Assembly (NCBI GenBank): GCA_017744795.1
Contig: JAGIAQ010000034.1
Span: 1 to 38,003, forward strand
DNA: 38,003 bases
Source of the DNA: Niabella sp.
GTDB taxonomy: Bacteria; Bacteroidota; Bacteroidia; Chitinophagales; Chitinophagaceae
Direction of reading: 5' to 3'
Numbering within the stretch: the first letter of the stretch is position 1; every line of letters begins with the position of its first letter. Under the pieces are notes generated by a model. That model was not told the DNA's origin, ran no database searches, and saw only the letters and a program-made list of their open reading frames with translations. Made by a program: the position numbers and the translations under genes. Shown here piece by piece: positions 2,172-21,540 of this stretch.

Positions 2172-3920
2172 CTACTTTATCTCCGTCGAAAAATTAGACA
2201 GCCAGGAGGGCGCTATGCCCCCTACTCCGCCCTTAATGCCCATCCAGTATACAATGTTGGATACTACATCTGTGGCAGCTGTGGGTATGGAAGCCGTGCC
2301 GTCAGGAGAAGCCGTGCGACCGGGCGGAACGTTTGGATCCATGCGTATCCAGCGGTAGGTACCGTTCAGCGCCATGTCATAGCCTCCCGGTGCATAGTTG
2401 TTGAATGCATCTCCTGTACCCTCATCCAACGGCCACCAGCCCGTAAGGTTTTTAAAATACGGGTGCCGGGTATAATCCGTCAGGTTTATATAGTTTTTAA
2501 CAATACTATCCGGCAACGACTTATTAAAATATACCAGGTCTGCGGCATAAAACGACATCGCATGGTTGGCGGTTATTGCAGGGCCACCGGTAGCCATCCG
2601 GTAGCCTAATTTAAGCGGCTCCGCCGGGTTGCTGAAATCAATATTTGTGCTGGAATGGCCCGAAGCAGTAGAGGCAATATTAATATCGCCGCCCGCCGGA
2701 ACTCCATCAACGTACAGTCTGGACCTGCGGGTGGTTGCACTCGTATTGGTGATCGTCATCGTATAAGTATGCCATTGATTTACCGATATAGCATTGGTAA
2801 ATGCTGCCTGATCCGCCTTAATATCGCCACTGCCAAAGTTGGGTTCATACCGCACACTTCCACTATTTACATTCAACCACATCCACCCCTTGATACTGTA
2901 ATAGGAGTTATCAATTTTGCTGGTCGATTTGGATAATATCGCCGGGTATTGTTTACCATCCAGATTATACATTCTTACCTGTATAGTAAACTCCTGCCCC
3001 AATTTGCAATCGTACAGCCCATTATCATTGGGCACATAAGCATAGGTGGTCGTATCTGAATTAAAAAAAGCTGTGGTAAACCCGGTTTTCTTTACCTCAC
3101 TTGAAACGCAACCCGGATAAGAACACAGGAAAAAGCCGGGTAAGGGGTTGGTATTGCCACCTGGGTTGGTAGTAACCATTACCAGCCAGCTTTCCTTATT
3201 GTAATTTTTACGGGCTTTCAATGCAGTCATAATATCGCCAATATAGCCGTCGGCCTTGCTAAGGGCGGTTTTATAGTCGGGGTTGGTTGCGGCAGCATAA
3301 ACGCCGGTTGCTTTGCCAGCCAGTGAGGCCCCGTTAAAATCCACTACCATTAGCCCCAGCTTATCATCCCTGTTTAACAAGCTCACCGAAGAATCCCGTA
3401 CGTTAGCATCGGCACTGAGGCTATACTGGTAATTAGCTGCACCGGCATATTTTGCCAGCCGGTCCCAGGGTGTTATTATTGCGGTGGTGTTACCGGGGCG
3501 GTTGCTGCGCAATAAGGTAAAAATAGTATTGGCGAAAGGCACGCGGTTTACCGGTGGCACTACAGGTTGCGCCGGATTATACTCCAGGCTGCTATCGGTA
3601 ATACCATGTATCAGCGGCTGCCGTCCGGTAAGGAGGGTGGCCCAGCTGGCCCCATCGGTTCCCGGTTTAGGCGTTTTGCTCTCGTTGTAGGAATACTTGG
3701 CATTTTGCTGCAGAGCGGTTATGTTGGTTAGTTTTGCAGCCAGCAGCTCCGAACCCGACACTCCGTCGATAGTGATCACCAGCACTTTTCTTTGCTTGCC
3801 CGCGCTATCGGGCTGATCAAAGATCTGGGGCGTGCTGGGGTATTTCTTACAACCCTGGAAAAAAGCGCCCGCCAGTACTGCTGCCAAACAAAAAGCGCCC
3901 GCGTAAATACCATGTTTCAT
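2172..3920 (-). CDS. Lipoprotein with degenerate alkaline-phosphatase-like domain and LamG-like domain (DUF4983-type)
   Basis: The signal peptide ends in a lipobox (AGAFFQGC, Cys24, then Lys-Lys), so this is probably a membrane-anchored lipoprotein facing the cell surface. Residues about 45-260 follow the alkaline phosphatase/nucleotide pyrophosphatase fold: KVLVITIDG (Asp52), then ASWATLLTG, then KADGYIG, then LVMVTTNPGG. Asp52 is kept. The later ligand motifs are altered: the usual D-x-x-G-H reads as S-x-x-G-K, and the usual SDHG reads as TNPG. The nucleophile position is Asp89 beside Thr88. Residues about 290-520 look like a LamG/concanavalin jelly roll (FTIQVRMYNLDG, WHTYTMTI, LYVDG), followed by a short C-terminal domain that I relate to DUF4983. 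It is the last gene of the operon, 29 bases after the M60-like gene, and a paralogue of the gene at 6002. I infer a surface-binding role; catalysis looks lost. Confidence 0.75.
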   Translation of the reverse strand: MKHGIYAGAFCLAAVLAGAFFQGCKKYPSTPQIFDQPDSAGKQRKVLVITIDGVSGSELLAAKLTNITALQQNAKYSYNESKTPKPGTDGASWATLLTGRQPLIHGITDSSLEYNPAQPVVPPVNRVPFANTIFTLLRSNRPGNTTAIITPWDRLAKYAGAANYQYSLSADANVRDSSVSLLNRDDKLGLMVVDFNGASLAGKATGVYAAATNPDYKTALSKADGYIGDIMTALKARKNYNKESWLVMVTTNPGGNTNPLPGFFLCSYPGCVSSEVKKTGFTTAFFNSDTTTYAYVPNDNGLYDCKLGQEFTIQVRMYNLDGKQYPAILSKSTSKIDNSYYSIKGWMWLNVNSGSVRYEPNFGSGDIKADQAAFTNAISVNQWHTYTMTITNTSATTRRSRLYVDGVPAGGDINIASTASGHSSTNIDFSNPAEPLKLGYRMATGGPAITANHAMSFYAADLVYFNKSLPDSIVKNYINLTDYTRHPYFKNLTGWWPLDEGTGDAFNNYAPGGYDMALNGTYRWIRMDPNVPPGRTASPDGTASIPTAATDVVSNIVYWMGIKGGVGGIAPSWLSNFSTEIK

Positions 3921-3949: not shown

Positions 3950-5959
3950 TTACAAGAAGCTCACTTCTGCCATTGAAGCATCATTAAAAGTGGCCTGCCC
4001 CGTTGTAAATACAATTCTTATATACTGGCCCGCTACCGGCGTTGTAAAATTAAAGCGCTGCAAGGCATCCCCATTTGCAAGGTCCCCTTCAAAAGCCTTG
4101 GTCATATTTGCCTGTACAGATGTGCTGCCCACATAGATAATAAAGTGCTTGGGACGGCTGGGGTTTGCGGTTCCCTGCTGCCGTTGTGTAAGCAATGCGG
4201 CTGAAACACTGCGGGTTTCCTGCATGTCTATTAACAGGTAATGCGGATAAGGTGGTTGCGGCGTTGCAGATACTTTTGTGTGCCAATAGGTGGTAATATC
4301 GCCATCTTTTACATTAACAGCCCTGCCGTCTTCACTGGTCGTTTCTTCTGCATCGGCGGTTACTACCCATTTATCTGTTGCAAAAGGCTGACCGGGAAGA
4401 TAGGTTACGGTTGAATCGCCGCCCGTGCGTGTAAAGGGATTATAGGCCCATATATTTTTATTCAGCTTCGTTGGGAAGCGCCCGGCCATTTCGTTTTGTT
4501 TATTGGCCGATATATTGATGCCCCAGGCCTGGAAAAACAGGATGCAGTTTAACCCCGTGTATTCGCAAAGCGATTCATAGAAATAGTCTTTCCGTTCCCC
4601 ATCGCTGATAAAATTTCTTAGCGGATTATTTCTTGTTTTTGAATATATATAATTTATAAATCCGAAGCCATCCTGGGTACCGTCTGCGCTTTTTAATTTA
4701 TCAAGCACCTGCATAAACGGGATCATTCTTCTGTAAATATCCACCATGTTCGGGTCGGTTTCCAGGTTCTTTGGCTGGTTGGTGGTGGGATCCAGGTAGG
4801 GTTTTGCAGCGAACAACAGGGCCAGGCTATCCGGGTTGCTGAAATAAAAAGGGTTCAGCCTTCTTCTGTCGGCATCCAGCCCCAGTCGTTTGGCCCGCCA
4901 CCAGGGAAATAAATTGGGCATGGAGGTTTGCGCCCAGTTGGGCATGCCCCGGTTACCTCCATAGAGGTTGCCAAAAGAGTACAGAAGATCCCAGGTTTTG
5001 CTGAAATCAGCCGCGTTGCGGCTGGTAACAGCAAATATTTTACCCATCCATTCATCGGTATTCAGGAAACTGATCGGATAACCCAGAATTGAATAAGTGC
5101 TTTGAGCATCCAGTGTTACCCGCCAGGGAACCAGCGAAGGTTGGTTTGCCGTGCTACCGGTAGAAGAAAGCCCTATCCAGCCCTCAAAATCGGACTGGAT
5201 GGCCGATTGCCATTCCTGTGCGAACACCGCCGGATCAAAGCCCGGATTCGCCTGCATATAGGTTTTAATGCGGGCTGTTGGAAGGGTAAAAATGGTTTTA
5301 CCGGTATTTATTTCAAACCAGGGAACGGTTGTTTTTTGTATTTTTTGGTTCCAGTCAGCAGCAGTGGTTGTTCCAAAAACAAAATCAGCGCTTTGGCAGG
5401 CGCCGTCTATTGTAAATGTTACCGGAGCGGATATTGGATAAGACGTCAAAATATAAATATGGCCACCAAACTGATTTTGAATACTGTTTTTCCCGGAGAA
5501 CAATTGGGTACGGGTTATGATAGCAGAATAACGTTGACCGCCGCTTACATTGTTGGACCAAACGCCTACCTGACACATAAGCCCGGTTACGCCAGAAGGA
5601 ACGGTAATGGTCACCGGCTCACCGGGAGCTGCGTAGAACCCGGTGCTGTACCGGTTGGCGGCGGGGAAGACGCCGGGTATGTTATACACGAAGGCGCTCG
5701 CATTAGAATTATCATAATTCAGATTCAAGGTTACGGTGCCGCCCTGCACCCGCGGTTCGCTCTTACCCACCAGCCCCGGAAAGGCGCGGGCATACTCTAT
5801 AAGGTTATTGGCGGCCAGGGAATCACCCTTATGCAACTGGGCGGAGTCCTTTGCATAGCCGTCCGGTATATTGAACCCGTATTTTTTGCAGCCGGCAAAA
5901 ATGAACAGCAGCACCAGGGCGGGCGCCTGCAGTACTAATAACCTGTAAATAATCTTCAT
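3950..5959 (-). CDS. M60-like (enhancin-type) lipoprotein with discoidin domain; protease site degenerate
   Basis: The signal peptide ends in LLFIFAGC with Cys23, so it is a predicted lipoprotein. Residues about 85-300 match the M60/enhancin accessory region, with a Tyr-Ser-Thr-Gly-Phe-Tyr-Ala-Ala-Pro-Gly-Glu stretch, a GGHIYI strand and a VPWFEI motif. M60 peptidases cut glycoproteins such as mucins and carry HExxH. Here the aligned segment reads LLYSFGNLYGG, with Tyr327, Ser328 and Asn331 in place of His, Glu and His, so zinc binding and catalysis appear lost. Residues about 530-669 resemble an F5/8 type C (discoidin) domain, with KDGDITTYWHT, PHYLLIDM and QYIRIVF. The gene lies 42 bases after one phosphatase-like gene and 29 before the other. 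A surface glycoprotein- or glycan-binding role is inferred; the family call is fairly firm. Confidence 0.75.
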   Translation of the reverse strand: MKIIYRLLVLQAPALVLLFIFAGCKKYGFNIPDGYAKDSAQLHKGDSLAANNLIEYARAFPGLVGKSEPRVQGGTVTLNLNYDNSNASAFVYNIPGVFPAANRYSTGFYAAPGEPVTITVPSGVTGLMCQVGVWSNNVSGGQRYSAIITRTQLFSGKNSIQNQFGGHIYILTSYPISAPVTFTIDGACQSADFVFGTTTAADWNQKIQKTTVPWFEINTGKTIFTLPTARIKTYMQANPGFDPAVFAQEWQSAIQSDFEGWIGLSSTGSTANQPSLVPWRVTLDAQSTYSILGYPISFLNTDEWMGKIFAVTSRNAADFSKTWDLLYSFGNLYGGNRGMPNWAQTSMPNLFPWWRAKRLGLDADRRRLNPFYFSNPDSLALLFAAKPYLDPTTNQPKNLETDPNMVDIYRRMIPFMQVLDKLKSADGTQDGFGFINYIYSKTRNNPLRNFISDGERKDYFYESLCEYTGLNCILFFQAWGINISANKQNEMAGRFPTKLNKNIWAYNPFTRTGGDSTVTYLPGQPFATDKWVVTADAEETTSEDGRAVNVKDGDITTYWHTKVSATPQPPYPHYLLIDMQETRSVSAALLTQRQQGTANPSRPKHFIIYVGSTSVQANMTKAFEGDLANGDALQRFNFTTPVAGQYIRIVFTTGQATFNDASMAEVSFL

Positions 5960-6001: not shown

Positions 6002-7870
6002 CTAAGGCACCACATCCGTATAAGGGGTGCTCCAGTATTTGCCATCCAGGTTCCAGCTTACAGCGGGTATCAGGCCCAGCCAGGTGTATACCTCAAAGGG
6101 CAGATCGACCCCCCGTATAGAAGCTTTATAATAGCCCTGGTCCGGCGGGGGACATACGCCCGGCCCCGGCTCGCTAAAGCTGAACCAGGATTTTGAATTA
6201 TTGTAATCGAATATTTTTCCGTCATTGTGCCGGGACGACCGGTCTTTTGCAATGGTAGCGCCATTACCATCATTCAGCTTCAGATCGGTAACCAGGAATG
6301 GATAGAGCGGGTCGTTCGGCCCGATGTTCGTACGGCAGGAATAGCTGGCTACCTGGGCGGGCGTCATAAAGGTTTTCCAGTACCGGAAATCGGATATCAT
6401 AAAATCCACCCCGGGAGACATGGAGCTGAAGGCCCATGCCGGGTAGCCAATGGTAAGCGGATTGGGAGATACAATGCTGGTGCCCCCCGGTTTATAGCTT
6501 TTCTGTGCTCTTTGCGCCCCATCAAAATAAAAGGTATGCTGAATAGGGCTGCCCGCAGGCCAGGCCACGGTAAGCGTCATATTATGCCAAAGCACATCCT
6601 TGGGATAAACGGAGCCGGCGCTCACCCGGTTTCCCGAGGCGACTGAACTTGTCGTATCACCCACAATATTGGTGAGTACATCCCCATTCTTATTTCCCAG
6701 GTCAAATGCAAAACAAATACCCTTGTAGGTGCTGTTATTATTATTGCAACTGGTCACTAATGGAAAGCACCAGTGCCCTGCACCTACGTCCGGAGACTGG
6801 CCCACCTGGCTGGGGTTTAGTATTTTTATTTTAAATTGTATGGTAAGGCTATCGCCCTGGTTAATATTGTAAATTCCATTGGTATTAGGTAACTCCACCC
6901 GGGCCCCGGAGGACCAGTTGATCGCATTCTTGGTTGAAAAGCCGCGGTACAAAAGCGCTGAATCCGTATAATTAGCAAAATTAAGCGTGGGCGGCGGCGC
7001 GGTAGGCCAATATTTGGTTGGGCTAAAGCGCTTGTTATAAAATATGGCAAAACTGTTGCGCCTTGTGTCATCATATAACGAAGCGCTGTCAGCGCCTTTT
7101 TTACCCTGGTTCAGGTTGCCGTTGATATTGGAAGCCACTATTATGAGCCAATCTTCATTTACATAACCCTTACGCGCCCTTATAGCAGCCAATGTGGCGC
7201 CTACATATCCATCCACGGCACGCACGGCATCAGCATATTGCTGCGCACGGTTGGTATAGCCATAAGCATCCCCTGCTTTGGCAATGCTGTTAAACTGGCC
7301 AATAAAAAGGCTGGCGCTGTCGGTATTCAAGGCATTCACGATGTTGGAAGCTACCTGCTGATCATTGTTCTGGCTAACGGTATTAACCGTAGCATCTTTA
7401 AGCAGGTTATCGCTAAACAGTTTATCAGCGGCGAAGGCCACCGTCCTTGTTTGCGGCCGTTCCGTTTTAAAGCGGGTTACAAGGCTGGGATAGCCGGCAA
7501 AGTTGGCAGAATCGAACCCCGCTACCACGCGGGTCTTACTGCTGAAGGCTCCGGTCATCATATTGGCCCAGGAAGCGGGAATCAATGAGTCGCGGGAATC
7601 AGTGCCTGATAAAGCCAGCGTGGTATATACAGCATTTTTGAGCATGCCGGTCATATTAACCGGGGCAATGGTATCCACCTCCCGCCCTTCAGCGCCATCC
7701 AGGATCAGGTACAGCACTTTTTTCTGAACAGACGCGCCACCCGGAGGCGGATAATTATCGCGCAGTTTATTGCTGTCATCAGGGAATATTTTGTTGCATG
7801 AGAAGGCAACAAATGCCGCAAACACAATAACGGCCAGGTTTAATTTTTTATTACCAATAATTATATTCAT
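6002..7870 (-). CDS. Lipoprotein with degenerate alkaline-phosphatase-like domain and LamG-like domain (DUF4983-type), paralogue 1
   Basis: I place the start at the ATG at 7870. The frame is open to 7975, but only from 7870 is there a signal peptide with lipobox (AAFVAFSC, Cys25), and the longer start would overlap the previous gene. Residues about 50-280 show the phosphatase-like fold: KKVLYLILDGAEG (Asp58), PASWANMMTG, RAVDGYVG and LIIVASNING. The Asp-His metal pair of the usual SDHG motif reads SNIN, and the middle D-x-x-G-H reads A-x-x-G-D; Ile97 takes the usual nucleophile position. Residues about 330-560 look like a LamG jelly roll (SLTIQFKIKI, HNMTLTV, HTFYFDG). It shares its layout with the gene at 2172. 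It lies 41 bases after the DUF5008-like gene. Probably a non-catalytic surface binding protein (inference). Confidence 0.75.
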   Translation of the reverse strand: MNIIIGNKKLNLAVIVFAAFVAFSCNKIFPDDSNKLRDNYPPPGGASVQKKVLYLILDGAEGREVDTIAPVNMTGMLKNAVYTTLALSGTDSRDSLIPASWANMMTGAFSSKTRVVAGFDSANFAGYPSLVTRFKTERPQTRTVAFAADKLFSDNLLKDATVNTVSQNNDQQVASNIVNALNTDSASLFIGQFNSIAKAGDAYGYTNRAQQYADAVRAVDGYVGATLAAIRARKGYVNEDWLIIVASNINGNLNQGKKGADSASLYDDTRRNSFAIFYNKRFSPTKYWPTAPPPTLNFANYTDSALLYRGFSTKNAINWSSGARVELPNTNGIYNINQGDSLTIQFKIKILNPSQVGQSPDVGAGHWCFPLVTSCNNNNSTYKGICFAFDLGNKNGDVLTNIVGDTTSSVASGNRVSAGSVYPKDVLWHNMTLTVAWPAGSPIQHTFYFDGAQRAQKSYKPGGTSIVSPNPLTIGYPAWAFSSMSPGVDFMISDFRYWKTFMTPAQVASYSCRTNIGPNDPLYPFLVTDLKLNDGNGATIAKDRSSRHNDGKIFDYNNSKSWFSFSEPGPGVCPPPDQGYYKASIRGVDLPFEVYTWLGLIPAVSWNLDGKYWSTPYTDVVP

Positions 7871-7911: not shown

Positions 7912-9609
7912 CTATTGTGTTAACTTCAGCTGTACGATATTGCCCACAGGTGTGTTGTCTATCCGGGATATCCATCCGTACAGGAGCACGAGATTATTGG
8001 AGCGCTGATACATCCCTAAAATCCGTCCCGAAAAAGCGCCCATATTGTTATAGCCATTGGCAAGCGCGCCGGTAGCGTCTACCACTGCAAATCCCTGGCG
8101 AAGGAGGCCGCCGTATTGTTTAAAGTTGCCGGCAATAATTATTTTCCCATTGTTGAGCTGACCGGCATAGTTGATATATCCGCCCGAGTAGTCTGCCAGC
8201 TTAAAGGTATTGTCCAGGGTTCCATCGGGGTTCAGCATCGCCACCCCGTTGGCCGGCTGCCCGTTAAAACTGGTGAAGTTGCCGGTGACCAATATTTTTT
8301 TAGTAGTATTATTATACGTGATCTTGAAAACACTTGCATTGGGCCCGGCACCGATATTGGCAGCAAAAGCCGGATCCGCCTGCCCCGCAGTAGTAAGCGC
8401 CATAATGCCCGGGACGTGCAATGCCGGGGAGGCAGCATTAGAGGGACTGGAAAGATCTGTAAAGCTACCTACTATAACGATCCTTTTATCCGGTAGCTGA
8501 ACAGCATCAACGACATTGCCGTTCAGGTTGCGGTCATAATTGCCATTTAAACGGTTATAGCTATAGTTATAGGTAGTGTCCAACATTCCTACCTGGCCGG
8601 CATTCACCTGTACCCGGGCAAAATTTCTTATGCCATAATAAGTAGGATAGGCCTGCCCTTTAGCAGAACGGGAATAATCATAATTTACATAATGGCTGAA
8701 GTTGCCGATAATAATGGCCTGGTCATCTGTGGGCCCTGCAAATATTTTTGCAATGGCGATGGAACCACCGTCTGCGACGCCGCCGTTAAATGCTGAAACG
8801 GTGTCTAAACTATTCAGCGGATACAGCACCGAATCGGAGTTCAGCACTTTTACCGTAGTGCTGTCGAGCCCCAGGTTGCCGGGGTTAACGGAGGCAATGT
8901 CCAGCGACTTAATCGTTGGAGAATAATAATTCGAAAAAGCTCCACCCAAAAAATATTTGGCGGCGCCGGAGGTTTTACCGGAAAAAATAGTGGCTATAGC
9001 TCCGTTAGCGCCCCAATGGGTATTTACATCCCAAAAACTTCCGTCATCCGCATACAAACTAGCAATATTATTCAGCTTGCGGCTTTGTCCGTTATAATTG
9101 CTGAAGCTGCCCGCAATAATGTAAACAGGCCTGTTATTGGCAGTGGCAACCGCAAGATCACTAATGGGCCCGTCGGAGCCGGGTGTAATACCCCCACGGT
9201 TAAAATCGGGGTCAATAAAAATGTTACCGATAATTTTTATTTCGGGACCGTAAAAATACTGTCCATCGCTGGTTACAATACTTCCCGGGCCGGAAGAAAC
9301 GTTTTGCGGAATGACCACATATACGAGGCTGTCCGTTGCTTTTGTTACCGTTGCGGGTGTACCATTTATATAAAAAGTATAGCCGGAGCCCAGTTTGCTA
9401 ACGCCCCTTACCCGAAACTGAACCGTGTCGCCCACATTGGCTGTCGGAGTCACCTTATCTTTTCCGTAAAACCCGACAATGGGCTCGGGCGCCGGCGGGT
9501 AGGGCGAGCCGGACAGGTGGCTGGTCTTAGTGCAGGCGTAAAAGGATGCAAGCAGCGTAGCCATTATAGAAAAAGCCGCTATACTATATCGTAAACCATT
9601 TTTTTTCAT
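7912..9609 (-). CDS. DUF5008-like surface lipoprotein with IPT/TIG-like domain and delta-60 repeats
   Basis: The signal peptide ends in ATLLASFYAC (Cys26), indicating a lipoprotein. Residues about 45-130 look like an immunoglobulin-like IPT/TIG domain (VGDTVQFRVRGV, YTFYINGTPATV). From about 150 to the C-terminus there are several copies of a 'GNF-x-x-(F/Y)-x-G' pattern followed by 'LNPDGTLDNTF', the hallmark of delta-60 repeats that form propeller-like folds. Clear copies include VTGNFTSFNGQPANGVAMLN and AGNFKQYGGLLRQGF. No catalytic motif is visible. The gene lies 46 bases downstream of the FAS1 gene, in the slot where SusCD operons usually place surface glycan-binding proteins. I infer binding of a polymer or glycoprotein; the ligand is unknown. 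DUF5008 is assigned from memory of similar Bacteroidota operons, the repeats from the sequence. Confidence 0.7.
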   Translation of the reverse strand: MKKNGLRYSIAAFSIMATLLASFYACTKTSHLSGSPYPPAPEPIVGFYGKDKVTPTANVGDTVQFRVRGVSKLGSGYTFYINGTPATVTKATDSLVYVVIPQNVSSGPGSIVTSDGQYFYGPEIKIIGNIFIDPDFNRGGITPGSDGPISDLAVATANNRPVYIIAGSFSNYNGQSRKLNNIASLYADDGSFWDVNTHWGANGAIATIFSGKTSGAAKYFLGGAFSNYYSPTIKSLDIASVNPGNLGLDSTTVKVLNSDSVLYPLNSLDTVSAFNGGVADGGSIAIAKIFAGPTDDQAIIIGNFSHYVNYDYSRSAKGQAYPTYYGIRNFARVQVNAGQVGMLDTTYNYSYNRLNGNYDRNLNGNVVDAVQLPDKRIVIVGSFTDLSSPSNAASPALHVPGIMALTTAGQADPAFAANIGAGPNASVFKITYNNTTKKILVTGNFTSFNGQPANGVAMLNPDGTLDNTFKLADYSGGYINYAGQLNNGKIIIAGNFKQYGGLLRQGFAVVDATGALANGYNNMGAFSGRILGMYQRSNNLVLLYGWISRIDNTPVGNIVQLKLTQ

Positions 9610-11969: not shown

Positions 11970-14900
11970 TTAAAAGGTAACGGTTAGGCTGGCCGAAACG
12001 GTTTTGGGCGGCGGGTACCCCCCGGAACCATCGAAGCCTAAAGAGGTAACGGCTTCAGGGTTGGGCCCTGTGTACCTGGTAAAATAATAAATATTCTGCG
12101 CGCTGAGGGAGGCCCTGGCATAGGTAACACCGAATCGCTTAATAAAATTAGGGTTGAGCGTATAGCTGAGGCTGATCAGGTTTACTTTTACATAGGATCC
12201 GTCCTCAAAAAACAAGGACTGGTTATACCGGTAAGGGTCGATGCCGCTGGTATACCGGTAATCGAAGGGATTGGGGTATTTTGCATTATCGCCGTTTTGC
12301 TTCCAGTAATTATAATCATCAACAGGCGGTATAGCTGCCTTCTTGTAAATATAATCGGAACTGCTTAAACTAAGGGGATTATAAAGGGACAAAAATTTAT
12401 CAGCGATAGCAGTGTTCACCACATCGCGAATTAATGTAAATGAAAACTGGGTATTAAAACTCCAGCGGTCCTTATAGGTTACCCCCATGTTAAACCCACC
12501 GGTAATCAATGGCAGCGGGTTATACAAAGCCACCACATCATTGTTATCGATGAGGTAATCGCCGTTTAAATCGGTCCACCTGGGGTCGCCCGCTTTTAAA
12601 GGCACACCGTTTACACGTAACCGGTAGCCGGTAAGCGGGTCTACCTGTACGTCCTTATTCGTGGCGTACACGCCTACGGTATTATAGGACAGTGCGGAAA
12701 TCGGGTGGTTCCCCACTCTTATCAGCACCGGGATGTTTACCTGCCGGGGGTCCTTGATTATTTGCACGTACTCGCTCTGGTTCCCTTCCAGGTGGGTCAG
12801 CACATCACGGTCATAAGCGCCTACCAGGCCCACATTCCAGTTAAATTTGCCCATCCGGGGCGCCATATAGCGCAGGTCAATCTCGTGCCCTACGCTCACC
12901 AGTGAGCGGTCGTTGGTTTGTATGGCATCAAAACCGGTTGTGTTGGCCAGCGTTAATTTGGCGGCATTATTGTCCTTCATGCTGTAGTAAAAATCATACT
13001 GGATCGCCAGGCGGTTATTAAAGAAACTACCTTCATACCCAATCCCCAATGATTTATTAGAAAAAGGGGTAAAGTTTACGTTGGGCAAATAGCTATAATC
13101 GAACCCGATGGTTGGCTGGCCCACGTAACTGGCGCCGGGCTGGTATTTACCGTACACCGAAAAAATATCGCCCTGGGGGGTGATCTGCGTTCCATAGCTC
13201 AACCTGATGGCGCTTCCGTTGATCCATTTTACATCCTGCAGCCATTTTTCTTTTTCCATGTTCCAGCGAAACGCGATGCTGGTATTTTTTACATAGCCCT
13301 GGTTGGGGCCATTGGTGGAAGCAGCATCTGCACCGGACTGCGCCCAAAGCACGTAGCGCAGCTTATAGTTATACGTTAAGCTTCCGCGGTAGCCCACCCG
13401 GCGGGTATCGGTAATATTATCCAGCACGCCCCCCTTTGAGGCCCAAAAATCATAAGAGGCAGGTGTATAGGACTGGTCGTTGGCGATACCGGTTAAAAAA
13501 TACATATTTCCGCGGCTGACGTCTTTGGAAAATTCAGTTAAGAAGGTAGCGATAATACCATGCGGCTTGTCTTCCCCTTTGCCAAAATTATAGGTATAGT
13601 TGGCCACATTAAGGTTCCGGTAGCCATAGGTGCGGCGGTTAGATGTATTGTAGGCTGTATTTCCTGCATTGATATAGGAAGGCTTAAAATCATCGATAGA
13701 GCTGGACTGAAAGCTGTAGGATATTTCTGAACGGAGCGAGAGGTTCTGTATGGGTCGCCAGTTTGCGCTAAAGAACGGATAGATCTTGTAGCTTTTGTTA
13801 TCATTTTTTTCCAGTATTCCCGCCACGGCCCCGGTATTACCGGAAGAAAGTGATGGCGGGGGTAATAAGGTAGAGGCTGATGCAGCGGAAGCCACCCCGC
13901 TTTGCGATATGGCGTTACCACTTCCCAACCCCAGGATATCGATACCGGAACTATAATTAAAATTCAGTTCCAGTTTTGGCGTGGTATACACCAGTTTGGT
14001 GCCCAGCGTATATTTGGTATACCCCGTATTCCGCAGAATACCCGGCTGATTATAGTAACCCAGGGTGGTTGCATAAGTGAATCCCTTGCCTGAGGCTTTG
14101 TCATTGGTGCCCCCCCTTACGCTTAATACCTCGCTGGTATTAAAGGTGGGCTTATACAGCAGCGCCTGCCAGTCTACCGAATTATTATAAAACGCATTAA
14201 GGCTATCCGAATAATAAGGAATGCCTGAAATAATGCCCAGGGCATGGGACAGGGAGGTATCGTAGGTCAGTAACTGGTTCAGCCGGATATCCCGCTCCTT
14301 TCTGCCGCCGATAATTTTACGCAGGGGGGGCACTGCGCTGTAAAAAACGGAACTCGTAAGGCTAAACTGGGGCCGGGCGCTCTGTGATCTTTTGGTGGTG
14401 ATTACGTAAACACCATAGGCCCCGCGGGAACCATACATGGCTGTGGAAGCTGCGTCTTTTAATATCTGCACGCTTTCAATATCTTCAATAGGGATCACGG
14501 AAAGCGGGCTGGATCCGGCGTTGCCGGCACCGTAACCATAATCGGTATTTCCATCGATCATTACCCCGTCTATCACATATAAAGGCGAAGTGGGCGTCAA
14601 ATAGGCGTTCTGATCGCCGCCCTGGATACTGATATTGGACAGGCCCCGGAGCAGCGCCGTGCCCCGCACCCCCGGTGCCCCGGTATTATTCTGGATGTTT
14701 AACCCTGCCACTTTTCCCTGTAATAAGGATTCCACACTTGCCGCCGGCTGATCGCGTAGCTGCGCTGCAGAAATGATCGTTGAGGAGCCGGGGTTCAAAA
14801 CCCGTGATACTTTATTAACCCCCACTACTATTACTTCATCGTCCTGTGCATTGTGCTTGGCCTGCATCAGCAATACCACCGTACTGTCGCTTGGCACTGG

Positions 14901-15161
14901 TTTTATTTTTCGTTCCTTGTAGCCGGCATAGGACAAAATAAGGGTGGCATTTGCCGGCACGGAAAAGGTAAAGGACCCGTCGGGCTGCGAAACACCTAAA
15001 ACACGGGCGGCCTTGCCTGCCGAAAGAGTGATGGTGGCGCTTTCCAGGGGGAAACCGCTCACACTATCCATTACTTTTCCCGTGTACTTAAATTCGTTTT
15101 GTGCACTTACCCTTCCGGAAAAAATAAAGGCAATGGCTATCGTTAGGAATATGTAGCGCAT
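11970..15161 (-). CDS. SusC/RagA-family TonB-linked outer-membrane transporter, distal module
   Basis: This is the TonB-dependent importer of the SusCD pair. I use the ATG at 15161 (MRYIFLTIAIAFIFSG, a good signal peptide ending VSAQ); a TTG at 15188 would only add nine residues. Residues about 25-100 form a carboxypeptidase-regulatory-like domain (YTGKVMDSVSGFPLESATI). Next come the TonB-box-like EVIVVGVNKV and the plug (SVESLLQGKVAGLNI, PLYVIDGVMIDG, IESVQILKDAASTAMYGSRG). The remaining roughly 800 residues are the barrel, ending in Phe (SLTVTF). Length of 1063 residues is normal. A gap of 98 bases separates it from the DUF5007-like gene upstream, and it contains an AACCG/CGGTT hairpin at 15187-15202. 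A promoter or processing site could lie there, but I saw no clear promoter box. Confidence 0.95.
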   Translation of the reverse strand: MRYIFLTIAIAFIFSGRVSAQNEFKYTGKVMDSVSGFPLESATITLSAGKAARVLGVSQPDGSFTFSVPANATLILSYAGYKERKIKPVPSDSTVVLLMQAKHNAQDDEVIVVGVNKVSRVLNPGSSTIISAAQLRDQPAASVESLLQGKVAGLNIQNNTGAPGVRGTALLRGLSNISIQGGDQNAYLTPTSPLYVIDGVMIDGNTDYGYGAGNAGSSPLSVIPIEDIESVQILKDAASTAMYGSRGAYGVYVITTKRSQSARPQFSLTSSVFYSAVPPLRKIIGGRKERDIRLNQLLTYDTSLSHALGIISGIPYYSDSLNAFYNNSVDWQALLYKPTFNTSEVLSVRGGTNDKASGKGFTYATTLGYYNQPGILRNTGYTKYTLGTKLVYTTPKLELNFNYSSGIDILGLGSGNAISQSGVASAASASTLLPPPSLSSGNTGAVAGILEKNDNKSYKIYPFFSANWRPIQNLSLRSEISYSFQSSSIDDFKPSYINAGNTAYNTSNRRTYGYRNLNVANYTYNFGKGEDKPHGIIATFLTEFSKDVSRGNMYFLTGIANDQSYTPASYDFWASKGGVLDNITDTRRVGYRGSLTYNYKLRYVLWAQSGADAASTNGPNQGYVKNTSIAFRWNMEKEKWLQDVKWINGSAIRLSYGTQITPQGDIFSVYGKYQPGASYVGQPTIGFDYSYLPNVNFTPFSNKSLGIGYEGSFFNNRLAIQYDFYYSMKDNNAAKLTLANTTGFDAIQTNDRSLVSVGHEIDLRYMAPRMGKFNWNVGLVGAYDRDVLTHLEGNQSEYVQIIKDPRQVNIPVLIRVGNHPISALSYNTVGVYATNKDVQVDPLTGYRLRVNGVPLKAGDPRWTDLNGDYLIDNNDVVALYNPLPLITGGFNMGVTYKDRWSFNTQFSFTLIRDVVNTAIADKFLSLYNPLSLSSSDYIYKKAAIPPVDDYNYWKQNGDNAKYPNPFDYRYTSGIDPYRYNQSLFFEDGSYVKVNLISLSYTLNPNFIKRFGVTYARASLSAQNIYYFTRYTGPNPEAVTSLGFDGSGGYPPPKTVSASLTVTF

Positions 15162-15259
15162 AGTTAAGTTTTTCGGTATTTTGTTCAACCGCTGTAACGG
15201 TTACTAAAATTTTAAAATTGTTTTCAATCCTTGTATCTATATAAAACAGGTAACCGCTT

Positions 15260-16288
15260 TTACCCGTCCGAAAATTTCGGGTTATCATTACGGAACCAGA
15301 AAATAACCTCCCAGTCGCCGGGCTGGTATATCTTAAAATCGAAGGCGATGCTGCAGTTGAAAAATTGTTGTCCAAACCCGATGCGGCTCCATGCAAACAC
15401 CACATGCGCCAGCGTGCCGGCGGGGTTGGTATATTTTGTGGGGAACTGATCAATAAGCGGAACGGGGTAAGCCACTGTATAACTTGCTGCAGTGTCTGAA
15501 AGCTTCATATCGAACCCGTGCACCAGCGTGGTCCATTGGGTGAGTTTAAATTTATTGGGGTTAATGAAATGTTGCGCCGTATCTAAAAACTTAAACGTAA
15601 GCGAATTGCCATCCCCTTTTCTTCTGAAAAACACTACCCCGTCAACAAAAGTAGCCCCGGCCTCACCCACTACATTTGTGAACGTGAGGTTATTGCGCAC
15701 ATAGGGAACGGTGGCTTGCCCTGTTACCGGGTCGATATTGCTGGGCTCATAGGGCCGTTCTTTCAGCGGTTTTAACCGGAGGCCGGAAATATATTTTGAG
15801 CCGCCGGAGTTGCCCACCTGCACGTCAAAAACATAGCCGGAGTCCGGCTGGCTTCTGAAGATCTTTGAGCTGGCTTCGGGCCACATCAGAAACTGCCCGG
15901 AGTTGGGCCGTACTTCGAACAGATGGTGCGGTTCTACAGTACGTTTGTCTTCTATTTCTTTTAAAGAGGTTTCCAGCCCGGTGTATTGTTGTTTCCACAC
16001 TTTTACCGGGTATACATCGGTAGTGATCTCGGGAGCCGGATCGCCCGAAAGCGTGCGTGCATTCAGGATCTTAAAGGTGAGCGGCTGGGTTGAGCCGGTA
16101 AAGTTAAAGTTGCTTACGTCCGTAAGATAGGGCCGGCCCAGGGTAGGTGTAAACGTGGTTGAAATATACTGCGCATTGCTGTGGCTGAACTGTACCCGTT
16201 CTTCCGGCAGATACCTTTTTACACAGGAGGCAGCCCCCAGCATCCCTATTGACAGCAAAAACAAAAATATTTTTAAATTTATTTTCAT
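15260..16288 (-). CDS. DUF5007-like lipoprotein
   Basis: The product is 342 residues with a signal peptide ending in MLGAASC and the mature start CVKRYLPEE, so it is a lipoprotein. I relate it to DUF5007 by overall pattern and by its place after SusC, SusD and FAS1 genes; this is recalled, not searched. It is rich in beta strands and has no recognisable catalytic motif. Features include FTFTPTLGRPYL-like strands, an HHLFEVRPNSGQFLMWPE segment and a C-terminal DWEVIFWFRND stretch. It follows the FAS1 gene by 26 bases and precedes the second SusC gene. Probably an accessory surface protein of the upstream SusCD pair; ligand unknown. Confidence 0.6.
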   Translation of the reverse strand: MKINLKIFLFLLSIGMLGAASCVKRYLPEERVQFSHSNAQYISTTFTPTLGRPYLTDVSNFNFTGSTQPLTFKILNARTLSGDPAPEITTDVYPVKVWKQQYTGLETSLKEIEDKRTVEPHHLFEVRPNSGQFLMWPEASSKIFRSQPDSGYVFDVQVGNSGGSKYISGLRLKPLKERPYEPSNIDPVTGQATVPYVRNNLTFTNVVGEAGATFVDGVVFFRRKGDGNSLTFKFLDTAQHFINPNKFKLTQWTTLVHGFDMKLSDTAASYTVAYPVPLIDQFPTKYTNPAGTLAHVVFAWSRIGFGQQFFNCSIAFDFKIYQPGDWEVIFWFRNDNPKFSDG

Positions 16289-16314: not shown

Positions 16315-16998
16315 TTATGAATTAACTAACCGCGTTACGAATTCTCCAAATCCGAATACGTGTTTATCTGTGATCGTATAAATGATGCCGTTAGCAGCAT
16401 ATACCCCGGATGTGGTGGCATAGGTAGGCACCCAGAACCGGGTAAATATGGAATTTTTGGGATCGGCAATATACAGTTCCAGTGCCCCCCCCTCCATGTA
16501 ACCCTGGGCATCGTTGCGATTGTAGGCCATATTCATCATGTAGCCATATTTAACTGTGGGATAGTTAACGCCGTCCTTAAATTTCTGCAGCGTGTCGGGC
16601 AATACCTGCTGCGTCAGCACGTAGCGACACAACAGCGTATCCAGCTGCGCGGCGTTGATGGTTGCTAAATATAACGGCTGCCTGTTTTGGAGCTTACGCA
16701 AATTATTAAGCCCATTGACCGCTGCGGTAAAACTGGCATTGTTAACAGCGAGCAGCGTAATGCCTTTCTGGTTCTGCAAGGAGTCTTTCAACCCCTGTAC
16801 GCGATCTATGGCAAATAAAAGCGAATCGAACTGGCCGGGGGGCTGCCCCTTTATAAAATCATATACGCTGCCATTGAACGTGTTCTGTTTTTCAAAATTA
16901 TAATAGGGGCCTTTGGCCTTACTGCAACCCGCAAAACCCATTACCGCCAGTATTATAATACTGAATACAATTGCCTTTTTGTTAATCGCCGTTTTCAT
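16315..16998 (-). CDS. Fasciclin (FAS1) domain lipoprotein, proximal module
   Basis: The signal peptide ends in LAVMGFAGC, indicating a lipoprotein of 227 residues. FAS1 features are SVYDFIKGQ, FDSLLFAIDRVQGL, ITLLAVNNASFTAAVN, DTLLCRYVLTQQVLPDTL and the C-terminal AANGIIYTITDKHVFGFG strand. FAS1 domains are adhesion or ligand-binding modules. It starts 6 bases after the SusD stop, so translation is probably coupled. It occupies the same slot as the FAS1 gene at 9656-10372 in the distal module but is clearly diverged from it. Confidence 0.85.
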   Translation of the reverse strand: MKTAINKKAIVFSIIILAVMGFAGCSKAKGPYYNFEKQNTFNGSVYDFIKGQPPGQFDSLLFAIDRVQGLKDSLQNQKGITLLAVNNASFTAAVNGLNNLRKLQNRQPLYLATINAAQLDTLLCRYVLTQQVLPDTLQKFKDGVNYPTVKYGYMMNMAYNRNDAQGYMEGGALELYIADPKNSIFTRFWVPTYATTSGVYAANGIIYTITDKHVFGFGEFVTRLVNS

Positions 16999-17004
16999 AA
17001 AATT

Positions 17005-18594
17005 TTATTTTCCTTCCCAATAAGGGTTTTGTTTAATTAACGGGTTTGCTTCCATTACCGCGGTAGACACCGGCCAGTAAATGCCTCCCTGGTCGATCAA
17101 TTTATTGAAAGCAGGATTAGTTCGTTTCAATTTATTATACCGTACCAGGTCGTACCAGCGCCAGGCTTCGCCCAGCAGTTCCCGCCTTCGTTCCATAAAC
17201 ACGGCGTCAATCAGGTCGCCATCTTTTTTTGCATCATAGCCGGCCTCCCCCCTGTTGGCCCTTCTGCCGTTTAGTATCGAAAGGGCATCTGTGGTATTGC
17301 CAATAGCGGCACAGGCTTCGGCCCTCAAAAGCGCTATCTCCTCCATGCGCGAGAACATTATATTAGAGCCAAAAACGGCAAACAGATCGGTGGTTTTACC
17401 ACTAGTAAATACTTTTATTTTGGTAAACATAGGGGTAGCCGAAAAGAAGGTGCTCGGCTCTATATATTTACCCTGTGCCACCACCCTCCTGGTACTGTCT
17501 ACCACGGATGTTTGTACGGTATCAAAACGGAAGCGCTGATCCTGCGGGTCATTAAACATTAATGTAATAGAATCGGAAGGCACATACAAATCGGGCACTG
17601 ATTTAGCAACATAGGGCGTGGCCAGCGTCCAGCTTTCTATATGACCAAAGCCGCTGGTGCCGGTTTCGCCATGGTCCCAAAACAAGGTGAAACCCAGCAG
17701 CATCCGGTTATCACTTCCCACCTGGCCCCGGCCTTTAAAAACACCATTGGAGGCCGTAATATCTGCAGTGGTTGAATAGGTTAACCGGCCCTGGCTCATG
17801 TAATCCATTACAAATTTGGCGTATACATCCACATCAGCATAGCGCCCCTGCCAGGCGGCAATATGCGCCAGCAGGCCGTAGGCGCCCAGGCGGCCAACAA
17901 TGGTAGTACTGAAGCGGCTAAAATCATAGTTGTGATAATTGCCGGACTGTATGGGATCACTGCCGCCATAATAAAAAGGCAAATAATCCATCGCGCTCAA
18001 GAGCTCTTTTTCACAAAAGCCCAACACCAGCGATTTATCCGTACGGGCCACTGTGGGGAATTGTCCTTCGTAAGAGCTGGTTAGTAAGGGCACATCGCCC
18101 CAAATGCGCACCAGCATAAAATAAGCCCAGGCCCGCAAACAACGCATATGGGCCACATCTACCAATTGCAGGGCCTGCGTATACCGCCCGTCCTTTTTCA
18201 ACACTTCCGGGGAACGCTCAATAAAGAGGTTCGCTGCATTAATTACGGCATAGAACCGCCGCCAGTCGCGCATTTCATCCAATTGCGGAAAAGGCGCGTT
18301 CAGGTTACCGTCTATTACCGCTTTTAAATCGGCGCGCTGAACGGATGCAAAATCGCCCCCGCGCAGTTCGCCCCATAATAAATAGTCGTTATTGGTGGCC
18401 ATAGTAGCGCGGAACAAGGCATATACGGCAAAAAAATTACTGTTGATATCATCCATGGTATTCCATGCCACGGCCTGCCCATAAGCATGTTCCGGCGTAA
18501 TTTCCAGTTTTTTATTACACGAAAAACTAAAAATCATCAATAAAACAATGCTTACGTTTAATGCAAGATCCTTTATTGTAAATCGCTTAATCAT
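17005..18594 (-). CDS. RagB/SusD-family nutrient-binding outer-membrane lipoprotein, proximal module
   Basis: A lipoprotein (LLMIFSFSC, then NKKLEITPE) of 529 residues with SusD traits: AHMRCLRAWAYFMLVRIWGD in the TPR-like helical core, and RRELLGEAWRWYDLVRYNK near the C-terminus, followed by IYWPVSTAV and a terminal NPYWEGK. It should sit on the extracellular face of the SusC encoded just upstream; the gap is 18 bases. It is diverged from the distal-module SusD, suggesting a different ligand or a different part of the same one. Confidence 0.93.
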   Translation of the reverse strand: MIKRFTIKDLALNVSIVLLMIFSFSCNKKLEITPEHAYGQAVAWNTMDDINSNFFAVYALFRATMATNNDYLLWGELRGGDFASVQRADLKAVIDGNLNAPFPQLDEMRDWRRFYAVINAANLFIERSPEVLKKDGRYTQALQLVDVAHMRCLRAWAYFMLVRIWGDVPLLTSSYEGQFPTVARTDKSLVLGFCEKELLSAMDYLPFYYGGSDPIQSGNYHNYDFSRFSTTIVGRLGAYGLLAHIAAWQGRYADVDVYAKFVMDYMSQGRLTYSTTADITASNGVFKGRGQVGSDNRMLLGFTLFWDHGETGTSGFGHIESWTLATPYVAKSVPDLYVPSDSITLMFNDPQDQRFRFDTVQTSVVDSTRRVVAQGKYIEPSTFFSATPMFTKIKVFTSGKTTDLFAVFGSNIMFSRMEEIALLRAEACAAIGNTTDALSILNGRRANRGEAGYDAKKDGDLIDAVFMERRRELLGEAWRWYDLVRYNKLKRTNPAFNKLIDQGGIYWPVSTAVMEANPLIKQNPYWEGK

Positions 18595-18612: not shown

Positions 18613-21540
18613 TCAAAATGAAAGCCGAGCGCCAACGATTGCCATCTTCGGTATTTTTTGTGAATAGCCCGTGTAGTTTCCCAAATAATTCACCAGCTCC
18701 GGATCACCATTCTTGAACGGTGAAATCGTAAACAGGTTGGTTCCCGAAACATATACTAAAAACTTACTGATGCCGCCCATCTTTCTTTTACCCAGCACAT
18801 CGTAACTGAGGCTAACGGATCGCAGTTTAACATAGGAAGCATTTTGCAAAAACAGGTCCTGGCCTGATTGGTAAGGGATTACATTACTCCAGGGATTATA
18901 CATCGGGTAGTCGGTAATAGTAAAATCTTTCTGCCAGTAGGTAATTTCTTTAACCGTATTCAAATCAGCATTACCCTCGTTGTTGACAAAATTGAGCCGG
19001 TTTGAAATTTCCTGGTTGAGGAGTTTTTGCCCGATGGCAAAATGAAACATAAAATTGAGCGCATATCTTTTATACGAAAAATCATTACTAAAGCCCCCGT
19101 TGAGCTTTGGAAGCGCGTTGCCTTTCAAAACTTTGTCCTTATCGTTAATATCGCCATCGCCGTTCACATCCCGCCATTTAGGATCGCCCGGGTTCAGCGG
19201 GCCGCCATAAAAGGTTTGCCTGCGACCGGAGGAGGTAGTGGGTATATCTGAAAGGGAATTATAAATACCTTGGTTCTCAAACACCCAGAACGCATCGGCC
19301 GGTGCGCCCACTTTTAACATGCGGTTGCCGATAATAACCGACTGCAGCCCATCCGGCAAAGCCGTTAAGGTGTTTTTATTAAAATTGAAATTCAGCGCTG
19401 AGGTCCAGTTAACTGCTTTAGATTGCACAGCTCTGAAACTGATCGTTGCATCCAGTCCCTTATTATTTATTGCCATGCCGTTTTTGTAAACGCCGGAATA
19501 GCCCAGCTCCCTTGCCGCCGGAAGCAGGATGAGCATATTTTTATTATCGTTATTATACACATCAAGGGTTATCATTAATCGTTCCTTCAAAAACCCAAGA
19601 TCAACCCCAAGGTTGGCCTTATAGGCTTTTTGCCAGTCGATGCCATAGCCGATCCAGCCCTGGGTATAGGGATGGGCGGCTACCCCGCTTCCCAGAAAAG
19701 AAGGAATGGTAGGGTCCTGCGGCCAGGTGAGCCCTGTTGTAACATATACCGGGCCCTGGCTGTATAAATCGGTATTGTAGGGTATGCCCAGCACACCATA
19801 AGAGGCCCTCACAACAAAGCTGCTCAGGACTGCACTTTTTATAAGGCCGCTTTTTTCAACATCCCATTTTATATTTCCCATGGGCTCGGTGATCCAGCGC
19901 AGGTTCGGCTGAATGAAGGAAGCCCCATCCCTGCGTATTAATGCTTCTGCTTCTAAAAAATCCTTGTAGGTATAATGCAGGCGGCCATATAAGGAGCTTT
20001 GGGCGATCTTTTGCTTATCCGTAGCCAGATAATGGTATTGAAAATTGTAAACCGGATAGCCATTATCGGGATCGTTTTTCAATGCCCGAACTTTAATATA
20101 ATCGCTGGGTGTGTTGTAACCATAGGCATAGTCATAACGCTGTACATCCGACCGGAAGGACTGCCCTGCTTCAACCTCCAGGTTCATATCTTTATTGAGG
20201 CGGCGCGGATAGCTGATGGAATTGTCCAGTTGTATGCGCTGGTTGAATCCAAAATAATTGGAAGTAAAATTGTTGCCTGACAATAAAAAGGTGGGCCAAA
20301 ATGCGTCCCGGATATTTTCATTATAAGCGATACTTAGCTGGGACACTATTTTTATTTGTTTTATCGGCGACATATTCACAGCTGCTAATGCTTTAATATC
20401 ATTGACAATATTGTTATCGATAGCCCCCGTGCCCGGTGCGGTAAATACATTGAGGTATTTTTGATAATATTGTTTGTTCGGTGGCAATGGGCTTAATAAT
20501 GATGGGGTGTAGCGTACTTCCGCCAGGCGGTCCCTTACATTTTTATCACGGTCGCGTTCCAGTCTTGACCCGGTCACCAAACTGGTAAAGGTCATCCAGG
20601 GAAAGGGTTTCAGATCACTGACGATCGAAAAGCCATAGCGATGAAATTTAGAACCATCCTGCCCCGAAGCACTGTTCGTATGGTTTAAGGAGAACCGCAC
20701 ATTGGCCCGCGGATTATTGCCCACGGCCGCACCGGCATTGATTGAGTAAACGGGCGTGGTTTTATAATAGGCGTCTGTCCAGTTGGCCGGCCCGTAATAG
20801 CTGGCATCAGTCGAGTCTTTAAGGTAAGTGGGTATGTTTAGCCTATTGGTTAAGGTACCATACTTATCGTAAAACGGTTGCCGCCAGCTATTTTCATAGG
20901 CCGCATTCACCGGTGTTACCGGCGCATTAAATGCGGCTCCGAAATACGTGTTCACAAAAATATCGTTGCGCTTTGGCCGCGGCACTTTGGAAGTAATCCA
21001 AATAGCCCCGTTCGCCGCCAGGGGGCCTAACTTGGCCAGTTCAGCGGGATCTTTTAATACTTTAATACTTTCAATATTATCTGCTTCAACAACGGAGAGC
21101 AGGTTCGTTGCCGGGCCAATGCGGTTAAAATCTGTTGGCTGAATATCAAAAACCATATTATTATCCGGCATCATAGGAATACCATCCAGGTATACGGCCG
21201 GTTGTTGGGCATATAGGTCTTTCTTTGATAAAAGCGGCGTCTGCAATCCCCGTATGTACATAAATTGTTCTGTACCCGGTTCCCCATTCGGCTCCTGCAC
21301 ATATAACCCGGCTGCATTTCCCTTGATCATTTGTTGCAGGGAAATATAGGGTTGTTGCGTAAGATGACGCACAATAACCGGGTCAATCCCCTTTTGTATT
21401 CTGGAGTTGCGGATGGCCTTCGATGCAGTATCGCTTTTAGTACTATCGCTAACCTGGGCGTTTACATCAGACACCGTTCCGGCAAGAAGCAATAACAGGC
21501 ACAAATTTCTTAGATGGCCTAAACAATTGTTTATACTCAT
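18613..21540 (-). CDS. SusC-like TonB-dependent outer-membrane transporter, proximal module; no N-terminal regulatory-like domain
   Basis: This is the first gene of the long operon. A signal peptide (LCLLLLLAGTVSDVNAQ) is followed by only about 25 residues before plug-like sequence: ISLQQMIKGNAAGLYV, MYIRGLQTPL, PAVYLDGIPMMPD, IESIKVLKDPAELAKLG. The carboxypeptidase-regulatory-like domain normally found before the plug of SusC proteins is missing, and the plug's usual 'YGxRGANGV' reads GPLAANGAIWIT. The barrel occupies the rest and ends in Phe (GARLSF). Total length is 975 residues, short for the family. Its partner SusD starts 18 bases downstream. The ATG at 21540 is firm because the signal peptide begins there. 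Confidence 0.9.
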   Translation of the reverse strand: MSINNCLGHLRNLCLLLLLAGTVSDVNAQVSDSTKSDTASKAIRNSRIQKGIDPVIVRHLTQQPYISLQQMIKGNAAGLYVQEPNGEPGTEQFMYIRGLQTPLLSKKDLYAQQPAVYLDGIPMMPDNNMVFDIQPTDFNRIGPATNLLSVVEADNIESIKVLKDPAELAKLGPLAANGAIWITSKVPRPKRNDIFVNTYFGAAFNAPVTPVNAAYENSWRQPFYDKYGTLTNRLNIPTYLKDSTDASYYGPANWTDAYYKTTPVYSINAGAAVGNNPRANVRFSLNHTNSASGQDGSKFHRYGFSIVSDLKPFPWMTFTSLVTGSRLERDRDKNVRDRLAEVRYTPSLLSPLPPNKQYYQKYLNVFTAPGTGAIDNNIVNDIKALAAVNMSPIKQIKIVSQLSIAYNENIRDAFWPTFLLSGNNFTSNYFGFNQRIQLDNSISYPRRLNKDMNLEVEAGQSFRSDVQRYDYAYGYNTPSDYIKVRALKNDPDNGYPVYNFQYHYLATDKQKIAQSSLYGRLHYTYKDFLEAEALIRRDGASFIQPNLRWITEPMGNIKWDVEKSGLIKSAVLSSFVVRASYGVLGIPYNTDLYSQGPVYVTTGLTWPQDPTIPSFLGSGVAAHPYTQGWIGYGIDWQKAYKANLGVDLGFLKERLMITLDVYNNDNKNMLILLPAARELGYSGVYKNGMAINNKGLDATISFRAVQSKAVNWTSALNFNFNKNTLTALPDGLQSVIIGNRMLKVGAPADAFWVFENQGIYNSLSDIPTTSSGRRQTFYGGPLNPGDPKWRDVNGDGDINDKDKVLKGNALPKLNGGFSNDFSYKRYALNFMFHFAIGQKLLNQEISNRLNFVNNEGNADLNTVKEITYWQKDFTITDYPMYNPWSNVIPYQSGQDLFLQNASYVKLRSVSLSYDVLGKRKMGGISKFLVYVSGTNLFTISPFKNGDPELVNYLGNYTGYSQKIPKMAIVGARLSF

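Follow-up and report, generated by a model that had tools for sequence, protein, structure and literature searches.

Several described loci resemble the one analysed here. In excerpts of the published accounts of Bacteroides thetaiotaomicron, BT0268 is the gene for the SusC-like transporter of an arabinogalactan PUL (PMC5061871), and the promoter of this gene is the one in PUL5 that responds to arabinogalactan, with BT0267 as the HTCS (PMC6874557). The annotation listing of PMC10434189, in the part available, gives two RagB/SusD proteins and one DUF5007 protein for BT0269–75, and a carbohydrate-binding protein and an alkaline phosphatase family protein for BT0277–79. The substrate of PUL5 is given as unknown in the relevant excerpt of PMC13088901. 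Furthermore, partial descriptions present BT4244 as an M60-like O-glycopeptidase encoded in a SusCD locus, and BT3013/BT3015 as belonging to a PUL with an M60 protein and without CAZymes. In the literature searched, DUF5007 and DUF5008 are almost unmentioned, there is no account of the cassette described below, and none joins SusD, fasciclin and arabinogalactan protein.

The window, that is, the whole stretch of 38,003 nucleotides that was analysed, is the entire contig C169 of a Niabella genome of 4.57 Mb (241 contigs, 90% complete).

Organization and distribution of the cassette

The cassette consists of 11 co-directional open reading frames on the minus strand, running from 21540 to 2172, and contains adjacent SusC and SusD genes twice. 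In the order of transcription, its features are:

18613–21540, minus strand: SusC1, TonB-dependent transporter (Plug 1.3e-10; counterparts at the cassette head of relatives 40–53% identical)
17005–18594, minus strand: SusD1 lipoprotein (SusD_RagB 1.6e-15; PDB 3hdx of B. thetaiotaomicron, E 4.9e-122)
16315–16998, minus strand: FAS1-like lipoprotein a (no Pfam FAS1 hit; profile against TGFBIp FAS1 9.5e-4)
15260–16288, minus strand: DUF5007 lipoprotein, all-beta model (PF16398 6e-75; model pLDDT 92.3)
11970–15188, minus strand: SusC2, TonB-dependent transporter (Plug 6.6e-18)
10399–11958, minus strand: SusD2 lipoprotein (SusD_RagB 4.5e-20; 3iv0 of B. thetaiotaomicron, Z 46.7, 39% identity over 447 residues)
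9656–10381, minus strand: FAS1-like lipoprotein b (Fasciclin 2.7e-4; family profile 1.3e-7)
7912–9609, minus strand: DUF5008 and DUF5122 beta-propeller lipoprotein (PF17164 3.8e-20, PF16400 5e-6)
6002–7870, minus strand: PDE1, alkaline-phosphatase-like predicted pseudoenzyme lipoprotein (PF01663 0.0033, 17.5 bits, under the cut-off of 23)
3950–5959, minus strand: M60-like protein with F5/8C domain (PF13402 4.6e-13, 49.8 bits against a cut-off of 25.8; zinc motif lost)
2172–3920, minus strand: PDE2, alkaline-phosphatase-like predicted pseudoenzyme and LamG-like lipoprotein (PF01663 5.2e-8, 33.3 bits against 23; Laminin_G_3 2.8e-5, below cut-off)
2110–2149, minus strand: intrinsic terminator (hairpin, T run in the 3' arm, -24.1 kcal/mol, an energy that stands without a shuffle control)

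The genes are separated by gaps of 6, 11, 17, 18, 26, 29, 42, 46 and 71 bases, the last of which becomes 98 if SusC2 starts at the internal ATG at 15161. The PDE1 frame opens at 7975, which gives a 64-base overlap with the previous gene, while the internal ATG at 7870 gives a 41-base gap and yields a signal peptide. A lipobox cysteine is present in all nine non-SusC proteins, eight of them recognized by pattern and that of PDE2 (Cys24) by eye. The 11 co-directional genes, short gaps and strong terminator described in an earlier note on this DNA are present as described; the terminator hairpin (2149–2110) is not among the hits of a consensus scan. The single promoter candidate of that note corresponds to one TTG-N19-TAAGTTTG match around 360 bases upstream of SusC1, which is weak and carries no chance estimate, and the consensus scan found 45 sigma-70-like sites where 34.1 were expected. 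From this layout, we infer that the 11 genes are expressed as one unit.

The domain assignments of the earlier note fared differently. Pfam supports the two SusCD modules and the DUF5007/5008 and M60-like lipoproteins. The phosphatase-like folds hold for PDE2, while PDE1 stays under the cut-off. A FAS1 lipoprotein had been placed after each SusCD pair; protein b reaches 21.6 bits against PF02469, just under the cut-off of 22, and its family profile reaches the FAS1 chains of TGFBIp at 1.3e-7, but protein a, without a Pfam hit, reaches them at 9.5e-4. Elsewhere in the genome, five of its seven fasciclin-domain matches lie on G000 contig C162, away from the window.

The DUF5007 model has a top Z of 8.0, for a cadherin/Ig-like N-terminal part, and gave zero Foldseek matches at 0.001, a result that excludes no family. 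A weak LPMO match of the same protein (0.055) is below the Pfam cut-off, as is a carboxypeptidase-regulatory-like match (1.4e-6) at the N-terminus of SusC2. A single-sequence search for solved structures related to DUF5007, the propeller protein or PDE2 found none at 0.1. The FAS1-like, DUF5007 and DUF5008-propeller lipoproteins are likely surface binders.

A search for the same gene order in other genomes, as the earlier note had proposed, found that it recurs. Among 195 family genomes, 29, counting that of the window, match PDE2, and regions were fetched from 21 of these 29. The exact 11-gene order, on a single strand, is found in 13 of the 21; G006 and G177 hold a form without M60 and PDE2 (the stretch fetched from G177 begins at FAS1-like a), the cassette of G124 is interrupted by a contig end, and the five other genomes have stand-alone PDE relatives only. 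A set of named genomes was collected with a SusD2 profile and comprises the best 80 of 247 relatives, so it is biased toward close relatives. The exact cassette is present in 55 of these 80 loci (Pedobacter, Sphingobacterium, Mucilaginibacter, Niabella and others). PDE1 is missing in four, M60 and PDE2 are replaced by other genes in 14, and the M60 and PDE2 frames are split into pieces in one, L084 (Arachidicoccus ginsenosidivorans). The remaining six are incomplete: L102 stops after PDE1, and L097, L140, L150, L155 and L160 are partial. Both sets overlap, with L085/G187, L096/G009, L100/G180, L101/G189 and L147/G083 being, to judge by their length, the same contigs.

In the scanned loci with replacement, the genes after PDE1 encode lipoproteins with DUF1735-like, PA14, PKD or F5/8C domains, and no enzyme was found among the two genes directly following PDE1. 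Loci with other genes after PDE1 include L152, L143, L135 and L158.

In a class-wide sample of 395 genomes, DUF5007 is present in six, window included, which indicates that the cassette is patchy outside these families. Whole-domain DUF5007 occurs in G233, G445, G531 and G550, whose best matches are to named Sphingobacteriaceae loci, at only ~69% in the case of G233, while G421 has only a partial match. The M60 profile matches five of the 395 genomes, again including the window, and a 16S pattern matched 0 of 295.

There is little doubt that the cassette is a conserved uptake operon. Its 11-gene order, reduced to a core of nine genes in the shorter forms, extends over Chitinophagaceae, Sphingobacteriaceae and one Flavobacteriaceae MAG, and marks a common nutrient-capture machine, with lipoproteins largely of unknown function.

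The surroundings of the cassette are as follows. Upstream of SusC1 and 0.9 kb away, the stretch 22448–26238 encodes an AraC-type regulator and a 949-aa protein that matches MG2/Big_1 weakly; weak homologues of this regulator are found close to the cassette in a few relatives. A separate PUL on the plus strand (26658–37317) encodes an ECF sigma factor, FecR, SusC, SusD, a DUF4959/5126/5000 protein, a DUF4998 protein and an alpha-L-fucosidase. In G103 (L056), a set related to this fucosidase PUL, accompanied by GH95 and GH36, is located upstream of the cassette. The fucosidase PUL may or may not be linked to the cassette. The window is flanked by a phosphorylase/glycogen-synthase-like gene (201–1868) and by the end of a glycogen branching enzyme gene (37498–38001).

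Active sites of the enzyme-like proteins

The seven catalytic and metal positions of PDE1 and PDE2 were taken from intact stand-alone relatives, and their roles are presumably those of the equivalent residues in the alkaline phosphatase family. One of the seven is retained in each of the two window proteins. Counting the window, none of the 74 PDE1 rows and none of the 62 PDE2 rows has the full set, against five of five stand-alone relatives. A few of the rows are fragments from genes that are split or cut, and the fetched family loci were inspected by eye without scoring. The first Asp is retained in 71 of the 74 PDE1 rows and 58 of the 62 PDE2 rows, and single further residues are kept in some fetched loci, such as DHGG in the PDE1 of G124. 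Judged by these residues, PDE1 and PDE2 are very probably non-catalytic, and the impression of the earlier note that the phosphodiesterase-like proteins have lost key catalytic residues holds cassette-wide.

A different pattern is displayed by the M60 peptidase. The window protein has YSFGN where 13 fetched relatives have HExGH, the region of the second Glu is deleted, and the motif HExxHx(8,28)E, a pattern used as in the available part of PMC3267712, is absent from it. A frameshift was considered as the source of the loss and rejected, as no other frame encodes the motif. All 13 fetched family loci keep HExGH and the following Glu, and of the 60 named loci whose M60 exceeds 200 bits (drawn from the best 80 of 247), 53 have the motif intact. 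The seven motif-less proteins are those of L109 (HQLGH), L111, L113, L118 (Niabella), L119, L127 and L138. These counts imply that the usual system is peptidase-bearing and that the enzyme-free state seen here is derived. On the strength of the motif, it can be held with high confidence that the M60 is normally active and is dead in this genome. The host genome encodes two other M60 proteins with the motif (HELGH and HEVGH).

In a tree of 61 M60 rows, supported branches force a minimum of five changes to account for the dead state, a count to be read as a guide, given that all columns including the motif were used and several dead rows are long branches. The window row groups with Arachidicoccus, and its end branch has a length of 1.5 changes per column. 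The window M60 shares 38% and 42% identity with those of G187 and G018, while the M60 of G116 shares 52% and 49% with these two. These differences of 14 and 7 points are the largest relative drop of the cassette, as would be expected after the loss of the active site. The acceleration is not clean, since PDE2 (3 and 5 points lower) and DUF5007 (5 and 4) drop similarly, to a lesser degree. SusC2 is 1 point lower, FAS1-like a is 0 and 3 points lower, and the remaining six cassette genes have a higher identity in the window than in the G116 comparison.

The earlier note had claimed that the locus contains no intact hydrolase, which is true of this copy, where M60, PDE1 and PDE2 have all lost active-site residues; SusCD uptake loci typically, though not universally, include a degradative enzyme. 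The note had also proposed a system that is enzyme-free by design, in which dead enzymes read the ligand and cleavage takes place elsewhere or is dispensable. This design fits the present copy and the 14 named loci that carry other lipoproteins in place of M60 and PDE2, with no enzyme in the scanned ones. However, a conserved hydrolase, the M60, is found in relatives, a finding that the note itself had set against its proposal, and with the motif intact in most named and all fetched loci the design is improbable. What stands of the proposed capture system with dead enzymes is the capture and uptake operon, the dead phosphodiesterases and the state of this copy; as a description of the system overall it fails, the M60 being usually intact.

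A further reading, possible although on the unlikely side, is that the cassette is a conserved receptor system of pseudoenzymes, in which PDE1 and PDE2 are dedicated non-catalytic ligand receptors built on an alkaline phosphatase fold, and that the M60 has repeatedly turned from a cutter into a glycopeptide binder, with its gene staying in the operon. The natural occurrence of live and dead M60 copies within one type of operon makes it possible to test directly what surface proteolysis contributes to uptake by SusCD.

Candidate ligands and proposed mechanism

The kinship of the SusD proteins provides one lead to the ligand. SusD1 matches PDB 3hdx at 4.9e-122, with the next match at 1.3e-19, and SusD2 matches 3iv0 at 1.8e-91, its sole match at 1e-20. 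According to the PDB titles, these structures are NP_809182.1 and NP_809186.1, both from B. thetaiotaomicron VPI-5482. The two proteins are four accessions apart, and SusD1 and SusD2 are likewise four genes apart in the window. The pairs BT3015 = NP_811927.1 and BT4244 = NP_813155.1 give offsets of 808912 and 808911, which point to BT0270–0271 and BT0274–0275. The structures were taken as BT0269 and BT0273, given a drift of one in the offset and the identities of BT0268 (SusC) and BT0269 (SusD). The gene order of B. thetaiotaomicron used here comes from annotation lists and accession spacing, not from sequence, and on this basis 3hdx and 3iv0 would be BT0269 and BT0273, in the operon that starts at BT0268.

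The same structures bear on whether the cassette could be a RagAB-type peptide importer, with its cargo produced by proteases encoded elsewhere. The SusD2 model aligns to RagB of RagAB with a Z of 30.2, as it does to many SusDs, and the 11 genes lack CAZymes, which would suit a peptide importer. Nevertheless, the scores to 3iv0 (Z 46.7) and 3hdx (Z 37.0) are far above that to RagB, and the cassette lipoproteins carry F5/8C and LamG-like domains, making this possibility very improbable.

The closeness of both SusDs to proteins placed in the BT0268 operon favours a ligand of the arabinogalactan-protein kind, and an arabinogalactan-type ligand is the leading candidate, although less likely than not. 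The host genome has 20 GH43 matches, 18 of them above the cut-off. One of these proteins has galactan 1,3-beta-galactosidases among its best PDB relatives, and its gene adjoins a GH43 and a GH2 on contig C9. Its orthologue was searched for in the 195 family genomes; 18 had a match at 1e-25, of which the 15 with E < 1e-200 were counted and three weak ones were dropped (G006, G106 and G183, the first of which has a short cassette). As cassette genomes, the 18 with DUF5007 at E < 1e-60 were taken, plus G124, where a contig end truncates the gene; five with partial hits were dropped. The orthologue is present in six of these 19 cassette genomes and in nine of the 176 others (p 0.001), or, counted by genus, in 3/9 against 8/92 (p 0.057). 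A close orthologue is lacking in 13 of the 19 cassette genomes, and the co-occurrence of cassette and GH43 is weak.

The second lead comes from the neighbouring genes. Flanking proteins, 358 in all, were grouped all-against-all, and around 40 of them were scanned with Pfam. Hexosaminidases were found near the cassette in four relatives: a GH84 directly after it in L121, a GH20 directly after it on the same strand in G085, a GH20 three genes downstream in L118, and a GH20 about 6 kb upstream, beside a GH2, in G189. The coordinates of these genes (three GH20, one GH84) are L048:4387-6600, L047:11540-14209, L118:19640-21514 and L121:19433-21505. Other nearby enzymes are a GH43 in G085 and a GH88 in G180.

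These hexosaminidases are in line with a scavenger of mucin-type or other HexNAc-bearing glycoproteins, with the M60 acting as an O-glycopeptidase like BT4244, the partly described M60-like precedent in a SusCD locus; the PUL of BT3013/BT3015, by its excerpted description, is a parallel for an M60 without CAZymes. A GH20 near three loci, rather than one, lowers the odds of arabinogalactan and raises those of HexNAc. Nonetheless, only four loci are concerned, the other scanned flanks hold housekeeping genes or unrelated enzymes, and the SusD kin indicate arabinogalactan. The genera among the named cassette relatives are mostly from soil and plants, which also counts against mucin-type ligands. 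A HexNAc scavenger is a possible but rather unlikely reading.

The recurring flanking groups comprise a downstream lipoprotein (18 loci; F5/8C in the two scanned members that had hits and none in that of L106), an NHL-repeat lipoprotein (13), a glutaminase A group (six) and GH20 (three). The glutaminase A group follows the cassette in its six loci, alongside the genes that replace M60 and PDE2. Other flanks hold ATP synthase (by eye), FtsZ/FtsA, Lon, RsmF, RecN-like and transport genes. With many cassettes beside housekeeping genes, no enzyme is common to all the flanks scanned. The phosphorylated or sulfated polymer suggested in the earlier note found no support; the independent leads are to arabinogalactan and to HexNAc glycoproteins. 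DUF5007, DUF5008 and the pseudo-phosphodiesterases gain candidate ligand classes in this way.

In the reading preferred here, the operon encodes an uptake system with two SusCD pairs whose ligand is a glycoprotein, possibly an arabinogalactan protein; pseudoenzymes act as binders at the surface, and the peptidase was lost secondarily in this genome. As a whole, this reading is given somewhat less than an even chance. The two SusCD pairs would work as one surface uptake machine. Seven further lipoproteins, most of them probably exposed on the surface, would serve a large glycan-bearing protein or its fragments, which the FAS1-like, DUF5007, propeller and pseudo-phosphodiesterase proteins would bind. 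The loss of catalysis in PDE1 and PDE2, which have an alkaline-phosphatase fold, probably predates the spread of the cassette, and their present role is most likely binding or scaffolding. The tenth gene would in most relatives encode an M60 gluzincin that cuts the glycosylated polypeptide at the cell surface. As the peptidase of this genome appears to be dead, the system must live on fragments, which would be supplied by enzymes encoded elsewhere or by neighbours.

Comparison with known systems

PUL5, from BT0268 onward, probably has the kin of the SusD pair of the cassette; it begins with a SusC (BT0268), and a DUF5007 protein and an alkaline phosphatase family protein are annotated in this stretch. 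They differ in regulation, with PUL5 having the HTCS BT0267 and the window an AraC-type upstream regulator (an HTCS was sought in the window only), and also in the M60, which is dead in the window. We take PUL5 to be flanked by arabinogalactan-degrading CAZymes.

BT4240–4250 and BT3013/BT3015, in their partial descriptions, resemble the cassette in combining SusCD with a surface M60-like lipoprotein that bears an F5/8C-type carbohydrate-binding module, and the BT3015 locus, as excerpted, also resembles it in the absence of CAZymes. In contrast to the window M60, BT4244 is active. In the description available, BT4240–4250 has one SusCD pair and no mention of FAS1 or pseudo-phosphodiesterase proteins.

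Finally, the SusCD utilisomes of gut Bacteroidetes, in the excerpted account, share with the cassette a SusCD core and surface glycan-binding lipoproteins (PMC7618045). The cassette is distinguished from them by its two pairs and its inactive enzyme folds. An active surface enzyme is carried by the levan utilisome.
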